Positions 143 to 9,001 of a stretch of DNA of 9,185 nt are shown here, in pieces (the first letter of the stretch is position 1; each line of letters starts with the position of its first letter). Below the pieces are notes generated by a model, which was not told where the DNA came from, did no database searches, and saw nothing but the letters and a program-made list of their open reading frames with translations. Position numbers and translations under genes: made by a program. The DNA is from Nitrospinota bacterium (GTDB lineage: Bacteria > Nitrospinota > Nitrospinia > JACRGO01). The stretch is from contig JACRGO010000144.1 in NCBI GenBank assembly GCA_016212295.1, positions 1 through 9,185 on the forward strand, written 5' to 3'.

Positions 143-220
143 AAAAAAAATACTTATCTCACACGAAGCCACGAAGGCACAAAGTTTTTTTCTTTGTGGT
201 CTCAGTGCCTTTGTGTGAGA
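143..220 (-). terminator. R2-type hairpin followed by a T-run on the minus strand
   Basis: Positions 157-220 form a long imperfect hairpin. TCTCACAC (157-164) pairs with GTGTGAGA (213-220), and an inner GAAGGCACAAAG arm faces CTTTGTG and GTGCCTT on the other side. Read on the minus strand, the hairpin is followed after 6 nt by eight T residues (150-143). It lies downstream of the PBECR2-like/DUF2283 pair and is well placed to end that transcript. It is also the shortest copy of repeat family R2, lacking the inner GTTCAGGG-type palindrome of the two other copies. Confidence 0.5.
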
Positions 221-244
221 CAAATCCTTAAAAAGATTTTAAGA

Positions 245-366
245 TTTTAGCCGCGAAGAACGCCAATATCCTTCGACAAGTCAGATCCTTCGACAAGCTC
301 AGGATGACAGCGTGGGTTGTCATGGTGAGCTTGTCGAACCATCCGCGTCCTTGGCGGCTGATTTTA
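245..366. repeat. Long palindromic repeat R1, copy A
   Basis: The outer arms TTTTAGCCGCGAAGAACGCC (245-264) and CCTTGGCGGCTGATTTT (349-365) are imperfect reverse complements. A second palindrome is nested inside: TTCGACAAGCTC with GGATGACAG on the left, and TTGTCATGG with GAGCTTGTCGAA on the right. This copy carries an internal short duplication, ATCCTTCGACAAG at 268-280 and again at 285-297, which looks like replication slippage. It begins about 30 bp past the stop codon of the DUF2283 gene. Together with the R2 hairpin it fills the gene-free stretch 42-396. Confidence 0.85.
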
Positions 367-396
367 CTGTCTTGTCCCGCACCCTGGCAACCGCCT

Positions 397-639
397 CTAA
401 TGCCTCTTCGATGCGTCCATTATGGTCATGCCTATAAGTTCATCATCCTTATATCTGAGCAAAATCCCATTTTTCAACATCTCGGAATCAGTTGCCTTTT
501 GAGGTCTCTTGAAACTGATATAAAGGACGTCCGCCTCCTTGTCATAGTCTATCCACATCTTCTTTTCCGGTAATTTGAGTATATGGGAAACGGCCATCAT
601 TGTTTCGTTCAGGGTCTCTTCTGATACTGGCGTTGCCAT
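397..639 (-). CDS. DUF2283 family protein, likely antitoxin-like partner
   Basis: 80 residues. The C-terminal two thirds match my recollection of DUF2283 (PF10049): YDKEADVLYISF at residues 32-43, a G-I-L-L-R-Y strand at 58-63, and GMTIMDASKR at 70-79. The first 30 residues are a probable helix of the kind that precedes this small beta domain. Start: ATG at 639 has a strong AGAGGAG site about 7 nt upstream. It overlaps the end of the upstream nuclease-like gene by 31 bp (609-639), which indicates translational coupling. Known: DUF2283 genes often sit next to small toxin-like genes (DUF4258 and relatives); no biochemical role is firmly established to my knowledge. Inferred: it is the antitoxin or accessory partner of the upstream gene. 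The family call is fairly sure, the function is not. Confidence 0.8.
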   Translation of the reverse strand: MATPVSEETLNETMMAVSHILKLPEKKMWIDYDKEADVLYISFKRPQKATDSEMLKNGILLRYKDDELIGMTIMDASKRH

Positions 640-932
640 AATATCTCCTCTTTTTCAAGTTTCAATTTATTCGTGAAATACGCGGTGATGATAAATCCAT
701 CTGTTTCGCTTACTTCCTTGTATACTACGGCAATAAACTTATCTTGCAAAAACTTCCTTAAAGCCACTAAAGCGCCTTTATACCCTTCTATTATAAGATC
801 AGGGCCATCAACGGTTTGCAACACCTCATCATAATAACCGGCAAGGTCATCATGGTTTTCAACGATATGAAGCCATCTTTCCGGTGTTAATCTTATTGGC
901 GCCTTGTTTTTTGAATATACTATATCAACCAA
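609..932 (-). CDS. PBECR2-like (barnase/EndoU/colicin/RelE-type) nuclease-like protein, putative toxin
   Basis: 107 residues. Visible features are I-x-L-T-P-E-R-W-L-H-I at 13-23, a conserved-looking H27 followed by DDLAGYYDEVLQTV (28-41), GPD at 43-45, and a C-terminal strand GFIITAYFT at 79-87. This order (R/W/H helix, G-P-D, K-x-hydrophobic strand, [VI]-I-T-A-Y-F) is what I recall of the phage barnase-EndoU-colicin-RelE-like nuclease family 2 (PF18810). Known: the superfamily comprises RNA-cutting toxins. The start is TTG at 932 with AGGA about 9 nt upstream; an ATG at 939 is in another frame and stops after four codons. It is first in a two-gene unit, overlapping the DUF2283 gene by 31 bp. 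Inferred: toxin of a toxin-antitoxin-like pair. A related RelE-like fold under another name is the main alternative. Confidence 0.65.
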   Translation of the reverse strand: MVDIVYSKNKAPIRLTPERWLHIVENHDDLAGYYDEVLQTVDGPDLIIEGYKGALVALRKFLQDKFIAVVYKEVSETDGFIITAYFTNKLKLEKEEILWQRQYQKRP

Positions 933-1006
933 CCGCCATATTCCTAATTTGGCAAATACGTTTGCAATGGGCTACACATTTTTATTTCTTTTATAATTGG
1001 AGTCAT

Positions 1007-1110
1007 CTTTAGCCGCGAAGAACGCCAAGATCCTTCGACAAGCTTAGGATGACAGCATGGATTGTCATGGTGAGCTTGTCGAACCATCCGCGTCCTTGGC
1101 GGCTGATTTT
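1007..1110. repeat. Long palindromic repeat R1, copy B
   Basis: Same composition as copy A: outer arms TTTAGCCGCGAAGAACGCC (1008-1026) and CCTTGGCGGCTGATTTT (1094-1110), with the nested arms TTCGACAAGCTTAGGATGAC and GTCATGGTGAGCTTGTCGAA between them. It lacks the 13-bp internal duplication of copy A. It separates the PBECR2-like/DUF2283 pair from the PDDEXK-like gene, and its right end lies only 4 bp from that gene's stop codon at 1115. Confidence 0.85.
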
Positions 1111-1114
1111 GAAA

Positions 1115-1801
1115 TCACCACTCAAAACTCTGAATAACCTCCACCCCCTTCTTCTTCCCATATTCAATCACTGACTCCCTAGCGTAATGCGTCACGGCCA
1201 AAAGAAACTCGTCCCCTTCATGAGCGCCCTTCAGTTTCCGTGAAATATCAATCACGCCGTCTATATCTTCCTTCTCAAGCCTGGATTTCGCCTCTCCTAT
1301 TATAATAATCTTCTTTCCTTTATATGTCCCCTTGCTGAAAATATTAACCTCCCCGTCCTTCTTGACTCCAAAGCTCCTTATGCTCCTCCTCAAGAACCTC
1401 TCCGTCGCCTCTATCCCGTATCTCTTTTTAAGCATTTCCGGCAATACCCTGTATGCCTCGTTTTCAAGCATGTAGCCGAGGGTTGACGTGACCCCGCCCA
1501 AATCCTTTCTCGTCAGGTTCAATCCTTTTGCCAGTATGTTGACCTCCACGGCCAATCCATCCATTCTTTTTGTTAATACGCTGATTTCCTTCTGTGTTTC
1601 CTTCTGGGCCTCCGCAAGCTCTTCTACCTTCTTCTCCGTCCGCGTCTGGGCGTCCGCCAATTTTTCCACGGCATTTTCTATTCTGTCCAGCCGGCCTTCC
1701 ACCCTGCCGGAGTCTTTACTCGCGGCCTTTACCCTTTCATCCACAATCGTTACTATTGCTTTATACAACTTGCCGTCAATGCCGCCATGAGCCGTTTGCA
1801 T
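1115..1801 (-). CDS. Coiled-coil protein with C-terminal PDDEXK-like nuclease domain
   Basis: 228 residues. Residues about 33-100 are a heptad-patterned coiled coil rich in E, K and A, with repeats such as KLADAQTRTEKKVEELAEAQ. The C-terminal part (about 101-228) has the signature order of the PDDEXK nuclease superfamily: E115 in a helix (LGYMLENEAY), E151 in GEVNIF, and the E170-A-K172 pair after a hydrophobic strand (IIIIGEAKSRL). Start: ATG at 1801 with GGAGG 7 nt upstream. Known: proteins with this layout (DUF3782-like, sometimes mislabelled as chordopoxvirus fusion protein) are widespread and uncharacterised. Inferred: an oligomer held by the coiled coil, with a nuclease-fold head that may or may not cut DNA. 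It stands alone between two R1 repeats with no visible partner. I am confident of the architecture, not of activity. Confidence 0.75.
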   Translation of the reverse strand: MQTAHGGIDGKLYKAIVTIVDERVKAASKDSGRVEGRLDRIENAVEKLADAQTRTEKKVEELAEAQKETQKEISVLTKRMDGLAVEVNILAKGLNLTRKDLGGVTSTLGYMLENEAYRVLPEMLKKRYGIEATERFLRRSIRSFGVKKDGEVNIFSKGTYKGKKIIIIGEAKSRLEKEDIDGVIDISRKLKGAHEGDEFLLAVTHYARESVIEYGKKKGVEVIQSFEW

Positions 1802-1816
1802 ATTGAATCCTCCATT

Positions 1817-1900
1817 GTTTTATCCGCGAAGAACGCGAAGAACCACGAAGAATAATAAAAAAATTTTCGCGTAACTTCGCGCCCTTGGCGGCTGATTTTA
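1817..1900. repeat. Palindromic repeat R1, copy C (different core)
   Basis: The outer arms are TTTTATCCGCGAAGAACGCG (1817-1836) and CCCTTGGCGGCTGATTTT (1882-1899). The core differs from copies A and B: the TTCGACAAGCTC palindrome is absent and is replaced by GAAGAACCACGAAG facing TTCGCGTAACTTCGCG. It starts 16 bp upstream of the PDDEXK-like gene's ATG, leaving just room for its ribosome binding site. It runs directly into the R2 element that follows. Confidence 0.8.
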
Positions 1901-1910
1901 AAATTGTCTA

Positions 1911-2117
1911 ACACGAAGGCACAAAGGCGCAAAGTTTTTTTTAACCGTTCAGGGTTCAGGGTTCCAAGGTTCTGGGTTATAGAAAACCCTTTAATCACGC
2001 GGAGTTTCACGCCCTTTCAACCCGGAACCCAAAACCCTGAACCCAGAACCTTGAACCCAGAACCCAGAACGGACATTTTCTTTTTTTTCTCTGTGGTCTC
2101 AGCGCCTTTGTGCGAGG
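1911..2117. repeat. Nested palindromic repeat R2, copy 1
   Basis: The outer arms carry GCACAAAGGCGC on the left (1919-1930) and GCGCCTTTGTGC on the right (2102-2113). Inside lies a second inverted pair made of short GGTTCAGGGTTC / GAACCCAGAACC words, with a unique-looking centre around 1982-2015. Positions 1911-2064 are identical to 2763-2916 except for one base (G at 1929, A at 2781). With R1 copy C it fills the gene-free stretch 1802-2125 and ends 9 bp from the YgiT gene's stop. The plus-strand reading frame over it is a repeat artefact. Confidence 0.85.
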
Positions 2118-2125
2118 CCCTGTTT

Positions 2126-2347
2126 TTACAAACTAACCACTTCAACATCAATTCGTTCTTTTACGGCATGTTCTTTTTCCAAAAGGCGGTCTATCACGTC
2201 AAGGACCCCGGCATGGAAGTATCGCTCTCCGCAATCAGTACAAACCTCCACCTCTACATTCTCAACAATGTATAATTTACCCTGAAGCCAGTGCTGCCTT
2301 TTTGCCCTCTTTTTTACTGTTTTTCCTTCGCAAAATTCACAAATCAT
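2126..2347 (-). CDS. YgiT-type zinc finger protein (MqsA N-domain-like antitoxin)
   Basis: 73 residues from ATG at 2347. I choose this start over an ATG at 2389 because GGGAGA sits just upstream, and because the protein then begins MICEFCEG exactly at the zinc finger as in the family. Visible: C3-x2-C6 and C36-x2-C39 with a G-E-R-Y-F tail, the YgiT-type finger of the MqsA N-terminal domain. The helix-turn-helix half of full MqsA is absent, so this is the short form. It overlaps the upstream DUF4258 gene by 11 bp (2337-2347). Known: short YgiT fingers often follow DUF4258 or RelE-like genes as presumed antitoxins. Inferred: antitoxin or partner of that gene, binding zinc through the four cysteines. 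Without the HTH, autoregulation of the usual MqsA kind is doubtful. Confidence 0.85.
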   Translation of the reverse strand: MICEFCEGKTVKKRAKRQHWLQGKLYIVENVEVEVCTDCGERYFHAGVLDVIDRLLEKEHAVKERIDVEVVSL

Positions 2348-2585
2348 ATTTCTCCCTGAATCTACAAATGACATGGACGTTTCTGCCATCCCTTGCCGCG
2401 CCTTCGATCCTATACCTTGTTCCTCTTGCGTCTTCAGTCAATATTTTCTCGATTCGTCCCTTCAAAATAGCGTTTTCCATGTCAGCGCGCTCCAATTCGT
2501 CATTGAGCATCTCATCTTCCGCGTGCGCTGAAATGTAGTAATCCCTATTAATAACCTTCCGCCGAATCTTTTGTAATCTCGCCAT
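2337..2585 (-). CDS. DUF4258 family protein, putative RelE-like toxin
   Basis: 82 residues. Visible: ISAHAEDEM at 18-26, the D-M-E-N-A-I-L-K-G-R-I helix at 35-45, and a beta strand pair GTRYRIEG (55-62) and NVHVICRF (69-76). This is the DUF4258 (PF14076) pattern of S-x-H-A-x-x-x-M, then a V-x-x-A-I-x-x-G helix, then Y-x-I-x-G and the H-V-V strand. Known: the family is linked by fold to small RelE/BrnT-like toxins, mostly by context. The ATG at 2585 has AAGAAGGG immediately upstream and GAGG further up. The frame stays open for 19 codons before this ATG (a K-K-W-L-E-I-H-K-K-E-N-D-E-V stretch) with no ATG, GTG or TTG, so the gene may have lost its original start. First gene of a pair with the YgiT-type gene. 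Confidence 0.8.
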   Translation of the reverse strand: MARLQKIRRKVINRDYYISAHAEDEMLNDELERADMENAILKGRIEKILTEDARGTRYRIEGAARDGRNVHVICRFREKYDL

Positions 2586-2670
2586 GCCCTTCTTAACCTC
2601 ATCATTCTCTTTTTTATGAATTTCCAGCCACTTTTTTATTTAGGATTGCGGATTTAAAATCCCAAAAAGG

Positions 2671-2753
2671 ATTTTAGCCGCGAAGAACGCGAAGAACCGC
2701 TAAGAAAAATAAAAACCTTCGTGAAACTTCGCGTCCTTGGCGGCTGATTTTAA
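2671..2753. repeat. Palindromic repeat R1, copy D
   Basis: ATTTTAGCCGCGAAGAACGC (2671-2690) faces CCTTGGCGGCTGATTTT (2736-2752). The core resembles copy C rather than A and B, with GAAGAACCGCTAAG against CTTCGTGAAACTTCGCG. Copies C and D and the R2 elements to their right keep the same order and nearly the same spacing (offset about 852 bp). They are therefore part of one composite direct repeat bracketing the DUF4258/YgiT pair. Confidence 0.8.
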
Positions 2754-2762
2754 ACTTGCCTC

Positions 2763-2977
2763 ACACGAAGGCACAAAGGCACAAAGTTTTTTTTAACCGT
2801 TCAGGGTTCAGGGTTCCAAGGTTCTGGGTTATAGAAAACCCTTTAATCACGCGGAGTTTCACGCCCTTTCAACCCGGAACCCAAAACCCTGAACCCAGAA
2901 CCTTGAACCCAGAACCGGAACCCATAACCTTGAACCCATAACGTACACCTTCTTTTCTTTCTTCGTGATCTCCGCGC
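2763..2977. repeat. Nested palindromic repeat R2, copy 2
   Basis: Near-identical to R2 copy 1 over 2763-2916 (one difference in 154 positions). To the right it diverges, with extra GAACCCATAACC-type words, and ends in a decayed outer arm CTTCGTGATCTCCGCGC (2960-2976), 9 bp before the hybrid kinase's stop codon. With R1 copy D it occupies the gene-free stretch 2586-2985; I see nothing else there. Confidence 0.85.
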
Positions 2978-2985
2978 TATGGCTA

Positions 2986-4116: not shown

Positions 4117-4137
4117 GTCTCTCCTTTATTTATTATT

Positions 4138-4170
4138 AACCACGAAATACACTAACTACACGAAAAAATT
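4138..4170. repeat. Left 33-bp inverted-repeat arm of the GxxExxY cassette
   Basis: AACCACGAAATACACTAAC opens this 33-bp arm, which is the reverse complement of 4535-4567 at 29 of 33 positions. It spans the gap between the hybrid kinase and the GxxExxY gene and overlaps that gene's stop codon (4169-4171) by two bases. It belongs to the same CACGAA-rich style of repeat as R1 and R2. Confidence 0.85.
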
Positions 4171-4570
4171 ATAAAATGATTCTTTCAACCTGAGCCTTTG
4201 GATAATGGCCGAAGTTTACAATCAGCCCAAGCTTTAGACCCGTTGCCTTAAGATAGTTGAAAATTTGTGCCTTGTGTTCAGACGCTATTTCCTTGGCAGC
4301 CTTTAGCTCTACGATGATTTTTCCATAACAAATAATGTCCGGTTTATAGATTTGCCGAAGCTGCTCACCTTTGTAAAAAAGGTTAAGCTCTTTTTGGGAA
4401 ATGAAAGGAATATTTTGCCTGCAAAATTCTTTTTCCAAGCATTCCTGGTATACAGCTTCCAGAAATCCGCAACCCATTTCACGATACACTTCAAATACTG
4501 CCCCCTGAATGGCAAAGCATTCCTCCTTGAATAAAATTTTTTCGTGTGCTTCGTGTGTTTCGTGGTTCAT
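4169..4570 (-). CDS. GxxExxY protein (PDDEXK_3 nuclease-fold family)
   Basis: 133 residues. The family name motif is seen as G35-F-L-E38-A-V-Y41, followed by the PDDEXK core D78 in YKPDIICYGK and E88-L-K90 in IIVELKA. This is the layout of PF13366/TIGR04256. Known: these are widespread small proteins with a predicted nuclease fold and no settled function. The ATG at 4570 lacks a Shine-Dalgarno. Codons 2-12 (N-H-E-T-H-E-A-H-E-K-I) are exactly the right inverted-repeat arm, so the N-terminus is repeat-derived; the family core starts near F14-K-E-E. An AAGGAGG lies inside the gene (codons 15-17) but has no well-spaced in-frame ATG, GTG or TTG after it. The gene interrupts an otherwise signalling-gene run, suggesting an inserted cassette. 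The family call is secure; start and activity are not. Confidence 0.88.
   Translation of the reverse strand: MNHETHEAHEKILFKEECFAIQGAVFEVYREMGCGFLEAVYQECLEKEFCRQNIPFISQKELNLFYKGEQLRQIYKPDIICYGKIIVELKAAKEIASEHKAQIFNYLKATGLKLGLIVNFGHYPKAQVERIIL
4535..4567. repeat. Right 33-bp inverted-repeat arm, encoding codons 2-12 of the GxxExxY gene
   Basis: Read on the minus strand it begins AACCACGAAACACACGAAG and matches the left arm at 29 of 33 positions. It begins directly after the ATG and ends at codon 12, so the repeat provides the histidine- and glutamate-rich start of the protein. Confidence 0.85.
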
Positions 4571-4599
4571 GCTTTATTTAGCGTAATGTCTAATGACCT

Positions 4600-6582: not shown

Positions 6583-6671
6583 AACTGCTCAGGCACGGAA
6601 CCATAGGCACAGAGTTATTCTTTATCCTTCCCTTCTGCCTTTGTGCCTTCTGCCTCTGCGCCTGAGTAGTT
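6583..6671. repeat. Long palindromic repeat R3 between kinase and phosphofructokinase genes
   Basis: AACTGCTCAGGC (6583-6594) faces GCCTGAGTAGTT (6660-6671), and further in GGCACAGAG faces CTTTGTGCC. The right arm is built of CTTCTGCC / TTTGTGCC words. It is related in style to R2 (GGCACAAAG core) but has different outer arms. A T-run follows on the plus strand (6675-6680), yet the gene ending here lies on the minus strand, so I do not call it an intrinsic terminator for the phosphofructokinase transcript. Confidence 0.75.
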
Positions 6672-6679
6672 GCGTTTTT

Positions 6680-8181: not shown

Positions 8182-8234
8182 ATAAGTAAGTTTCGTGGTT
8201 TGAGGCACAATTGGCCAGTAAGAATGGGGGAGGC

Positions 8235-8666
8235 ATGAGCATTGATTATAGTTCGCTGGGAAAAGCAATAAACCGGCTTGAAAAAAGCATACAGTACGCG
8301 GATTCTCCAACAGCCAAGGTTGATCCTGGGTTGTTCGAGCAGTTGCGTAATTCCGTTATTCAGTGTTTTGAATTTACTTACGAGTTAAGCCACAAACTGC
8401 TCAAGCGCTATCTTGAGGAAACGTCCGCCAGCCCTGATGAGTTTGATTTGGGCGTTTTTCAAAACTTGATTCGAATAGGCAATGAAAAAGGCATGCTGCG
8501 CTCTGATTGGCCGCGCTGGAAGGCATACCGGCAAGCCCGCGCGGACAGCAGCCACGCTTATGATGAAGATAAGGCGGATGCGGTATATCAGATCGCCCAT
8601 GATTTTTTGATAGAGGCCGGGCATTTGTATAAAAAGCTTACTGAAAGAAGCGGCAGGGAATCATGA
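8235..8666 (+). CDS. hepT: HepT-type HEPN toxin (HI0074-like nucleotidyltransferase substrate-binding protein)
   Basis: 143 residues from ATG at 8235, preceded by GGGGGAGGC. An in-frame TTG at 8211 would add eight residues but lacks support, and the GGGGGAGG favours the ATG though its spacing is tight. The protein is all helical. It carries FEFTYELSHKLLKRYLE at 45-61, typical of PF08780/TIGR01987, and the HEPN ribonuclease motif R102-x4-H107 (RADSSH). Known: HEPN toxins of this group cut RNA, and the partner MntA nucleotidyltransferase neutralises them by AMPylating a tyrosine near the motif; Y109, two residues after H107, is the expected place. The ATGA overlap with the next gene shows coupling. 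It is on the opposite strand to the rest of the window and separately promoted. The catalytic motif is intact, so I expect an active toxin. Confidence 0.9.
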   Translation: MSIDYSSLGKAINRLEKSIQYADSPTAKVDPGLFEQLRNSVIQCFEFTYELSHKLLKRYLEETSASPDEFDLGVFQNLIRIGNEKGMLRSDWPRWKAYRQARADSSHAYDEDKADAVYQIAHDFLIEAGHLYKKLTERSGRES

Positions 8667-9001
8667 CGATGAGCTACTCCATGCCTGGCATCGACCTCAA
8701 TCCTCACGACTTGGAAGAGGTGAAACGGATTTTAAGGGCCATCGCGCCAGAATACGATGTGTGGGCGTTCGGCTCTCGCGTGGATGGGACGGCAAAGGCA
8801 TACTCGGATCTGGATTTGGCCGTTATCGCGGAGCGTCCTTTGCCGCTTTCCCTGAAAGCTGATTTAAAAGAGGCGTTTGACGAATCCGGCCTTGCCATCC
8901 GGGTGGATATAATTGATTGGGCAAGCGTCCGTGAAAATTTCCGCGCGATTATTGAGCGGAAGAAAGTCATGGTGCAGGAAGGGGGACAGATTTCAGAATA
9001 A
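8663..9001 (+). CDS. mntA: MntA-type minimal nucleotidyltransferase antitoxin
   Basis: 112 residues. The motif G37-S38-x10-D49-x-D51 of the polymerase-beta nucleotidyltransferase superfamily (PF01909/PF18765) is complete, and the third carboxylate is D82 in RVDIIDW. The ATG at 8663 overlaps the HepT stop as ATGA and has AGGGA a few bases upstream; a second ATG at 8669 is a possible start. Known: MntA proteins transfer AMP from ATP to the HepT toxin, blocking its RNase. With all three metal-binding acids present this copy should be active. The toxin-first gene order is usual for this family. No DNA-binding domain is present, so any autoregulation would need another factor. Confidence 0.92.
   Translation: MTMSYSMPGIDLNPHDLEEVKRILRAIAPEYDVWAFGSRVDGTAKAYSDLDLAVIAERPLPLSLKADLKEAFDESGLAIRVDIIDWASVRENFRAIIERKKVMVQEGGQISE

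Follow-up and report, generated by a model that had tools for sequence, protein, structure and literature searches.

What spreads the long palindromes that lie between the small genes of a contig from a Nitrospinota bacterium? The stretch of DNA analysed here, called the window, is an entire contig of 9,185 bp (G000:C107) from a genome of 3.74 Mb that is 90.5% complete, and the palindromes at its gene junctions belong to two families, R1 and R2. The original prediction regarded them as the borders of exchangeable cassettes of toxin and nuclease genes. Our analyses point to a different agent, a small nuclease of the GxxExxY family, whose gene lies between the inverted arms of another palindrome in the same window. 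With a probability of roughly 0.7, R1 and R2 represent gene-free copies from a larger group of word-palindrome elements whose GxxExxY protein reads its own arms and spreads them. GxxExxY proteins, which are named for a motif only, and palindromes of the CACGAAG type both recur across phyla without a known role, and the link between them makes the DNA target of each protein predictable from its sequence and provides a candidate agent for the palindromes.

The GxxExxY gene of the window and its relatives

The R1 and R2 copies listed in the original prediction are real, and the list omitted an element of the same class at positions 4134-4571 that carries the GxxExxY nuclease gene (Table 1). The protein scores above the curated cut-offs of two family models (TIGR04256, 139.6 bits with a cut-off of 35; PF13366, PDDEXK_3, 141.7 bits with a cut-off of 22). 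The motif D...ExK followed by QxxxY is conserved, with D78 invariant and E88, K90, Q102, and Y106 present in more than 90% of 75 sequences. A search by sequence gave no solved structure for the protein. The AlphaFold model (predicted local distance difference test, pLDDT, 92.9) has the Cas4-family protein SSO0001 (4ic1) as its best solved fold, top in both structure searches (Foldseek, E 4.6e-4; VIA, Z 9.9, root-mean-square deviation 3.4 over 98 residues). Motif residues and predicted fold together suggest that GxxExxY proteins are RecB/Cas4-like members of the PD-(D/E)XK nucleases and that they are catalytically active. The D-ExK and QxxxY motifs are shared with the Cas4 and RecB-family nucleases, whereas the GxxExxY protein has just 133 residues, its first helix is poorly covered in the structural comparison, and no CRISPR genes were seen in the window. 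In the model, residues 22 and 29, which are seven positions apart, both lie on the helix formed by residues 15-32.

The class of palindromes is defined by CRCNRAN words that are repeated with a period of 9 bp in inverted arms. The genome of the window has four GxxExxY genes, and every one of them is located between such arms, each with a different word (CACGAAA, CGCGGAT, CACGGAA/T, and CAGGAT), and the other three proteins are just 36-40% identical to that of the window, whose closest relative, at 73%, is from Methylomonas koyamae. The association extends far beyond this genome. When 84,980 species genomes were scanned, a first set of 80 GxxExxY loci from many phyla was obtained. The inverted-repeat score at the gene edges had a median of 39 for 77 of these loci, and 92 neighbouring genes of about the same length had a median of 17. 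A score of at least 28 was reached by 73% of the loci and 3% of the controls (p=6e-18), and the two top-scoring control genes themselves carry palindromes of the GxxExxY type. The set was extended to 149 distinct elements, comprising the first loci, loci from the bacterial class, loci from the 21 genomes behind the first loci, and further stretches; period-9 words were present in the flanks of 135 of them, versus 4 after shuffling. A separately collected set from Pseudomonadota had the words in 27 of 28 cases, and in the pooled data they are found at the gene edges of 162 of 177 GxxExxY loci.

In most elements (98 of 128) the gene lies within the loop of a single palindrome, with one arm a median 11 bp away from the conserved core and the other 9 bp away from the stop codon. 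By analogy with PD-(D/E)XK homing endonucleases, this arrangement can plausibly be read as a nuclease gene that interrupts its own target; unlike these, GxxExxY genes are not found in introns or inteins, and the target would be a repeat palindrome. A period of 9 as a means of keeping the arms free of stop codons in all frames was considered and rejected, as the arms have 4.3 open frames compared with 4.1 in shuffled sequences.

In distant phyla, GxxExxY elements also occur within Type I restriction-modification operons or next to them, at 11 of the 80 loci (L109, L113-L116, L123, L131, L134, L168, L169, and L173). At locus L144, nested palindromes surround one gene, the inner with CACGAAT and the outer with CACGAAA words, and the inner arms adjoin a protein with Gln22 and His29. 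Another word palindrome (L012:6937-7042) extends into the beginning of what is probably a coaD gene, whose annotated N-terminus may be palindrome-encoded.

Covariation between protein and palindrome

With residues numbered as in the window protein, a single residue separates CACGAA from CACGGA words in the first 80 loci. In the combined covariation set of 162 elements, residue 22 covaries with base 5 of the word. Among words with A or C at base 7, Arg or Lys occurs with G in 18 elements and with A in one, and other residues occur with G in 5 and with A in 56 (Fisher p=1.7e-12). Gln22 is paired with A5 in 41 of 41 cases, and the lone element that combines Arg22 with A5 (L280) is a divergent member. 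The top covarying residues out of 133, which are 22, 15, 12, and 18, are all located at or beside the N-terminal helix. Residue 29 goes with base 7, as Tyr-A in 69, His-G in 46, and Asn-C in 6 elements, and T occurs with Tyr, His, or Ser. Bases 2 and 4 gave no clear signal for a residue code. In DNA recognition helices, side chains usually make Gln-A and Arg-G contacts.

The pairing also has predictive value. Among loci outside the first scan, examined once the rule had been recognised, L184 with Arg22 and Asn29 has the word CACGGAC, and L152, L177, and L165 with Gln22 and Asn29 have CACGAAC. The Pseudomonadota set, which had been held out, agrees with the rule for base 7 in 26 of 27 cases; it consists mostly of His29 proteins and bears on residue 29 alone. 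The best tree holds 11 contrasts, of which 9 are concordant and one is opposed. The GxxExxY protein thus very probably reads its own palindrome, as far as sequence comparison can tell, and the covariation suggests that it binds the arms. The words of R1 (CGCGAAG) and R2 (CACAAAG/CACGAAG) flank GxxExxY genes of the His29 type in other genomes, for example CGCGAAG at L286, CACAAAG at L288 and L300, and CACGAAG at L285, L289, L303, and L311.

These data bear on the possibility that the palindromes are ordinary repetitive extragenic palindromic (REP) sequences, bacterial interspersed mosaic elements (BIMEs), or miniature inverted-repeat transposable elements (MITEs), moved by an unrelated transposase of the HUH RAYT or insertion sequence (IS) type, with GxxExxY as a passenger. 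In size, intergenic position, and nesting they resemble REPs and MITEs (PMC2817692; PMC10969869). However, single residues of the protein covary with single bases of the repeat, and period-9 words flank GxxExxY genes in many phyla. Because a passenger would not covary with the repeat in this residue-by-base manner, we regard such a role as highly improbable. As in pairs of MITEs and IS elements, short gene-free copies share their termini with gene-bearing ones, but the GxxExxY elements have no transposase, no target-site duplication was identified, and both arms belong to one palindrome.

A closer parallel is the REPtron, in which dispersed intergenic palindromes are accompanied by a cognate TnpA-REP/RAYT (HUH) gene with co-evolved recognition (PMC8266576). 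Dispersed intergenic palindromes, an associated nuclease gene, and co-evolution between palindrome and enzyme are likewise found here. In contrast to the REPtron, the GxxExxY protein is of the PD-(D/E)XK type and falls outside the HUH/Y1 transposases, one palindrome usually holds its gene in the loop, period-9 words take the place of a GTAG-headed hairpin, and recognition apparently occurs via a base-reading helix. The GxxExxY elements are best read as palindromes paired with a nuclease in the manner of a REPtron, the enzyme being of the PD-(D/E)XK type and encoded in the loop.

Probable mobility, a proposed mechanism, and a second palindrome class

Presence and absence of elements can be seen directly at orthologous sites. 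In the Caulobacterales loci L182 and L185, an element lies between what we take, from sequence alone, to be dnaG and a sigma-factor gene, and in L184 it is absent, with a gap of some tens of bases. At a reciprocal site, L184 has its CACGGAC element, and L185 has just a gene-free CGCGGAA palindrome, which is the word type of the full element of L185 at a distance of 2.4 kb. Gene-bearing and gene-free copies occur in the same genomes. Across 77 genomes from the bacterial class, palindromes increase in number with GxxExxY genes (Spearman 0.54, p=4e-7; about 0 for a control pattern), and the median number of palindrome arms is 5.5 with GxxExxY versus 0 without. The reciprocal empty sites and this correlation are consistent with a mobile element, and the repeats do look mobile. 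Phages or plasmids as vehicles were rejected, as the viral collection contains just one GxxExxY locus, and 8 of 72,556 plasmids have one.

We propose that R1 and R2 are non-autonomous members of the class, and that autonomous members carry in their loop one gene for GxxExxY, a predicted small Cas4/RecB-like PD-(D/E)XK nuclease. Its first helix would read the words, with Gln22 calling for A and Arg22 for G at base 5, and with Tyr29 calling for A, Asn29 for C, and His29 for G or T at base 7. The protein would bind the arms and cut at extruded or replicating palindromes, and break repair or template copying would then spread the palindromes and turn gene-free copies into gene-bearing ones. That spreading takes place at all is suggested by the distribution of the palindromes.

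The same protein–arm relationship could have a regulatory meaning, with the arms as autoregulatory operators or terminators of GxxExxY and the gene-free copies as sites of a regulon or of nucleoid proteins. The arms lie about 10 bp from the gene ends, the protein seems to read them, and gene-free copies are often near gene ends; multicopy intergenic sequences of Geobacter have been proposed to be regulatory sites of the IHF/HU type (PMC2700814). Yet the protein has the full set of PD-(D/E)XK and QxxxY residues, arms are present at both gene ends and thus beyond the promoter side alone, and word, gene, and copy number differ between genomes in the style of a selfish element. We therefore consider a regulatory role unlikely, albeit less so than a passenger role.

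Several results weigh against the proposal that GxxExxY proteins read and spread these palindromes. In this genome, as assembled, there is no GxxExxY gene of the R1/R2 word type, and R1 and R2 therefore have to be orphan gene-free copies here. A full palindrome lies on one side of the gene in 20 and on both sides in 10 of 128 elements. The short protein gives poorly resolved trees, whose well-supported branches hold just two to three contrasts, nearly all concordant and none opposed. Base 7 also tracks C81, N105, and Q42, and because these residues are located elsewhere in the protein, subfamily history is mixed into the base-7 signal. By their words, R1 and R2 fall into the His29/G7 subfamily, within which no residue stood out as a partner of base 5. 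The empty sites, with flanks that are 78-88% identical, revealed no clear target-site duplication, and their sequences fit insertion and loss alike. Finally, some genomes of the bacterial class, such as G004, hold palindromes without any GxxExxY gene.

G004, with its many word palindromes, has five matches to another family, the S23 four-helix-bundle proteins (TIGR02436), which has 17 matches in the genome of the window. In a survey of S23 loci (L331-L360, and C215, C48, and C208 of the window's own genome, G000), inverted repeats frame the gene in 22 of 25 loci versus 1 of 20 controls, and the period of their words is 7 (13 loci) or 8 (7 loci) and never 9, whereas GxxExxY arms mostly have a period of 9. 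The repeat R4, which is nested in loops of R2 copies, has a period of 7, and the R2/R4 nests therefore look like one class inside the loop of the other. A comparable arrangement is known from the intervening sequences of 23S rRNA genes in Coxiella and Leptospira, in which stem-forming inverted repeats carry a small S23 open reading frame in the loop, and for which a mobile origin has been proposed (PMC4990558). Stem and loop gene are alike, and the palindrome class of R4 frames the same S23 family; intervening sequences differ in lying inside rRNA genes, whereas the elements described here are intergenic and have words with a period of 7-8 (S23) or 9 (GxxExxY).

We see an even chance that these findings reflect a widespread type of mobile element, composed of a word palindrome and a loop gene from at least two unrelated families (GxxExxY with period 9 and S23 with period 7-8), of which GxxExxY would read its palindromes via a one-helix residue–base code, spread them, and account for many unexplained intergenic palindromes across phyla. 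The link offers a second, non-HUH route for the spread of palindromes, the S23 parallel may bear on the old question of the nature of rRNA intervening sequences, and, if direct cutting and conversion were demonstrated, the system would merit being called categorically new. A pairing of GxxExxY, PDDEXK_3, or PF13366 with repeats is not described in the limited set of literature that could be searched. The accessible portions of the repeat literature on Geobacter, MITEs, and Thiomargarita do not describe it, nor is there a repeat context in what was available of the literature naming GxxExxY, which includes one mention in a paper that is, by its title, on a viral genome.

Some elements show local duplication: in a Geobacter genome (G081:C3:169508-172251, L268), three GxxExxY elements that are about 95-97% alike stand in tandem, and at L134 there is a 166-bp tandem duplication of a palindrome. 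A GTTCN7GTTC box, the alphaproteobacterial SOS/LexA consensus, precedes GxxExxY in six of nine alphaproteobacterial elements (L135, L165, L177, L182, L184, and L185), with seven such motifs in total in 54 kb, and the gene may be damage-induced in these bacteria. Among the few motifs tried, no SOS boxes were found outside the Alphaproteobacteria.

The palindromes and genes of the window

The palindromes at every junction of the three modules, which are all on the minus strand, were confirmed, with four R1 and three R2 copies that all fold as hairpins (Table 1). Chance is excluded for their arms, with 11 (R1) and 32 (R2) matches genome-wide versus none for reversed-pattern controls. R1c+R2b+R4 and R1d+R2c+R4 form one composite direct repeat of 211 bp with 95% identity around the YgiT/DUF4258 pair.

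Table 1. Palindromes, gene-bearing element, and protein genes in the window
Feature	Position	Strand	Remarks
R2a	155-220	none	gene-free palindrome, words CACGAAG/CACAAAG, period about 9
R1a	245-365	none	gene-free palindrome, word CGCGAAG; loop holds hairpin R3 (284-343)
DUF2283 protein, 80 aa	397-639	-	56 bits, cut-off 23
Small protein	609-932	-	matches PBECR2 and DUF4258 below threshold; may be the toxin that pairs with DUF2283
R1b	1007-1110	none	loop holds hairpin R3 (1029-1088)
Coiled-coil protein, 228 aa	1115-1801	-	only coiled-coil models, below cut-off; nuclease domain unconfirmed
R1c	1818-1900	none	R1 palindrome without interruption
R2b	1905-2118	none	loop holds R4 (about 1945-2072), a palindrome with period 7 from the S23 class
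YgiT-type zinc finger, antitoxin-like	2126-2389	-	47 bits, cut-off 20
DUF4258 protein, probable toxin partner	2337-2585	-	42 bits, cut-off 25
R1d	2672-2752	none	R1 palindrome without interruption
R2c	2757-2980	none	loop holds R4 (about 2797-2942)
Gene-bearing palindromic element	4134-4571		GxxExxY gene between inverted arms AACCACGAAACACACGAAGCACACGAAAAAATT
First arm, AACCACGAAATACACTAACTACACGAAAAAATTATA	4138-4173	none
GxxExxY protein (TIGR04256/PDDEXK_3), 133 aa	4169-4570	-	D78, E88, K90, Q102, Y106 present; Q22 and Y29 on helix 1
Second arm, AACCACGAAACACACGAAGCACACGAAAAAATTTTA read on the minus strand	4532-4570		encodes N-terminus MNHETHEAHE
Further gene-free palindrome, related words	6587-6676		CAGGCACGGAACC... 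/ ...CTGCCTCTGCGCCTG

Could R1 and R2 nevertheless be borders at which recombination exchanges modules of toxin, antitoxin, and nuclease genes? Within the window, their presence at every junction and the framing of the YgiT/DUF4258 pair by the composite repeat speak for this, as do a second DUF4258/YgiT pair at about 0.7 kb from an R1 copy and the 11 GxxExxY loci at Type I restriction operons. Across the genome, however, R1 is found at about 39 places (63 rows with a covariance model, the weakest perhaps from different word families), an arm pattern for R2 gives 32 matches at about 28 places, and 34 of 35 copies examined outside the window are intergenic; the gene-free copies are often close to gene ends. 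This largely agrees with the outcome that the original prediction named as its own refutation. An enrichment of toxin-antitoxin genes was not found: among 20 flanking genes scanned against Pfam there was one antitoxin (Phd/YefM), and the others were ordinary, including ATP synthase epsilon, proC, Lpd, D-Ala ligase, ROK, MobB, FliW, RseP, DprA, and kinases. Just two of the nine DUF4258 loci of the genome are less than 1 kb from an R1 or R2 copy, and one of these is the window itself. The composite R1-R2-R4 repeat has no third copy in the genome, and R4 also occurs elsewhere, nested in other R2 loops. Because R1 and R2 are nearly always located between ordinary genes and the composite repeat is present only twice, an array of defence cassettes with cassette-specific borders is unsupported, and we consider cassette exchange very unlikely. 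The tie between a nuclease and the repeats, part of the same idea, holds in another form, as the association with the GxxExxY family. The toxin-antitoxin modules are probably bystanders within a repeat-rich stretch, although ordinary recombination at the composite direct repeat could lead to loss or duplication of the YgiT/DUF4258 pair. The sole congener (G001) shares just the PFK gene of the window's neighbourhood.

The local density of palindromes is high, with seven within 2.8 kb, for which the one explanation at hand is that such repeats tend to nest and to duplicate. An example of nesting is the R3 hairpin (ccttcgacaagctcaggatgaca...), which sits at the same spot in two R1 loops; its period is not clear, and it probably comes from another class than R1 and R2.

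As to the genes, DUF2283, DUF4258, and the YgiT finger score above their cut-offs as originally called, and the PBECR2 assignment does not (20.2 bits, cut-off 27.1). The PDDEXK domain proposed for the 228-residue protein was not confirmed either, as its sole matches are coiled-coil models below cut-off. No integrase is present among the window proteins scanned, in agreement with the original prediction. At 8211-9001, an HI0074-like substrate-binding protein and an MntA-like nucleotidyltransferase, the latter below cut-off, are encoded, and the two genes are probably a toxin-antitoxin pair.

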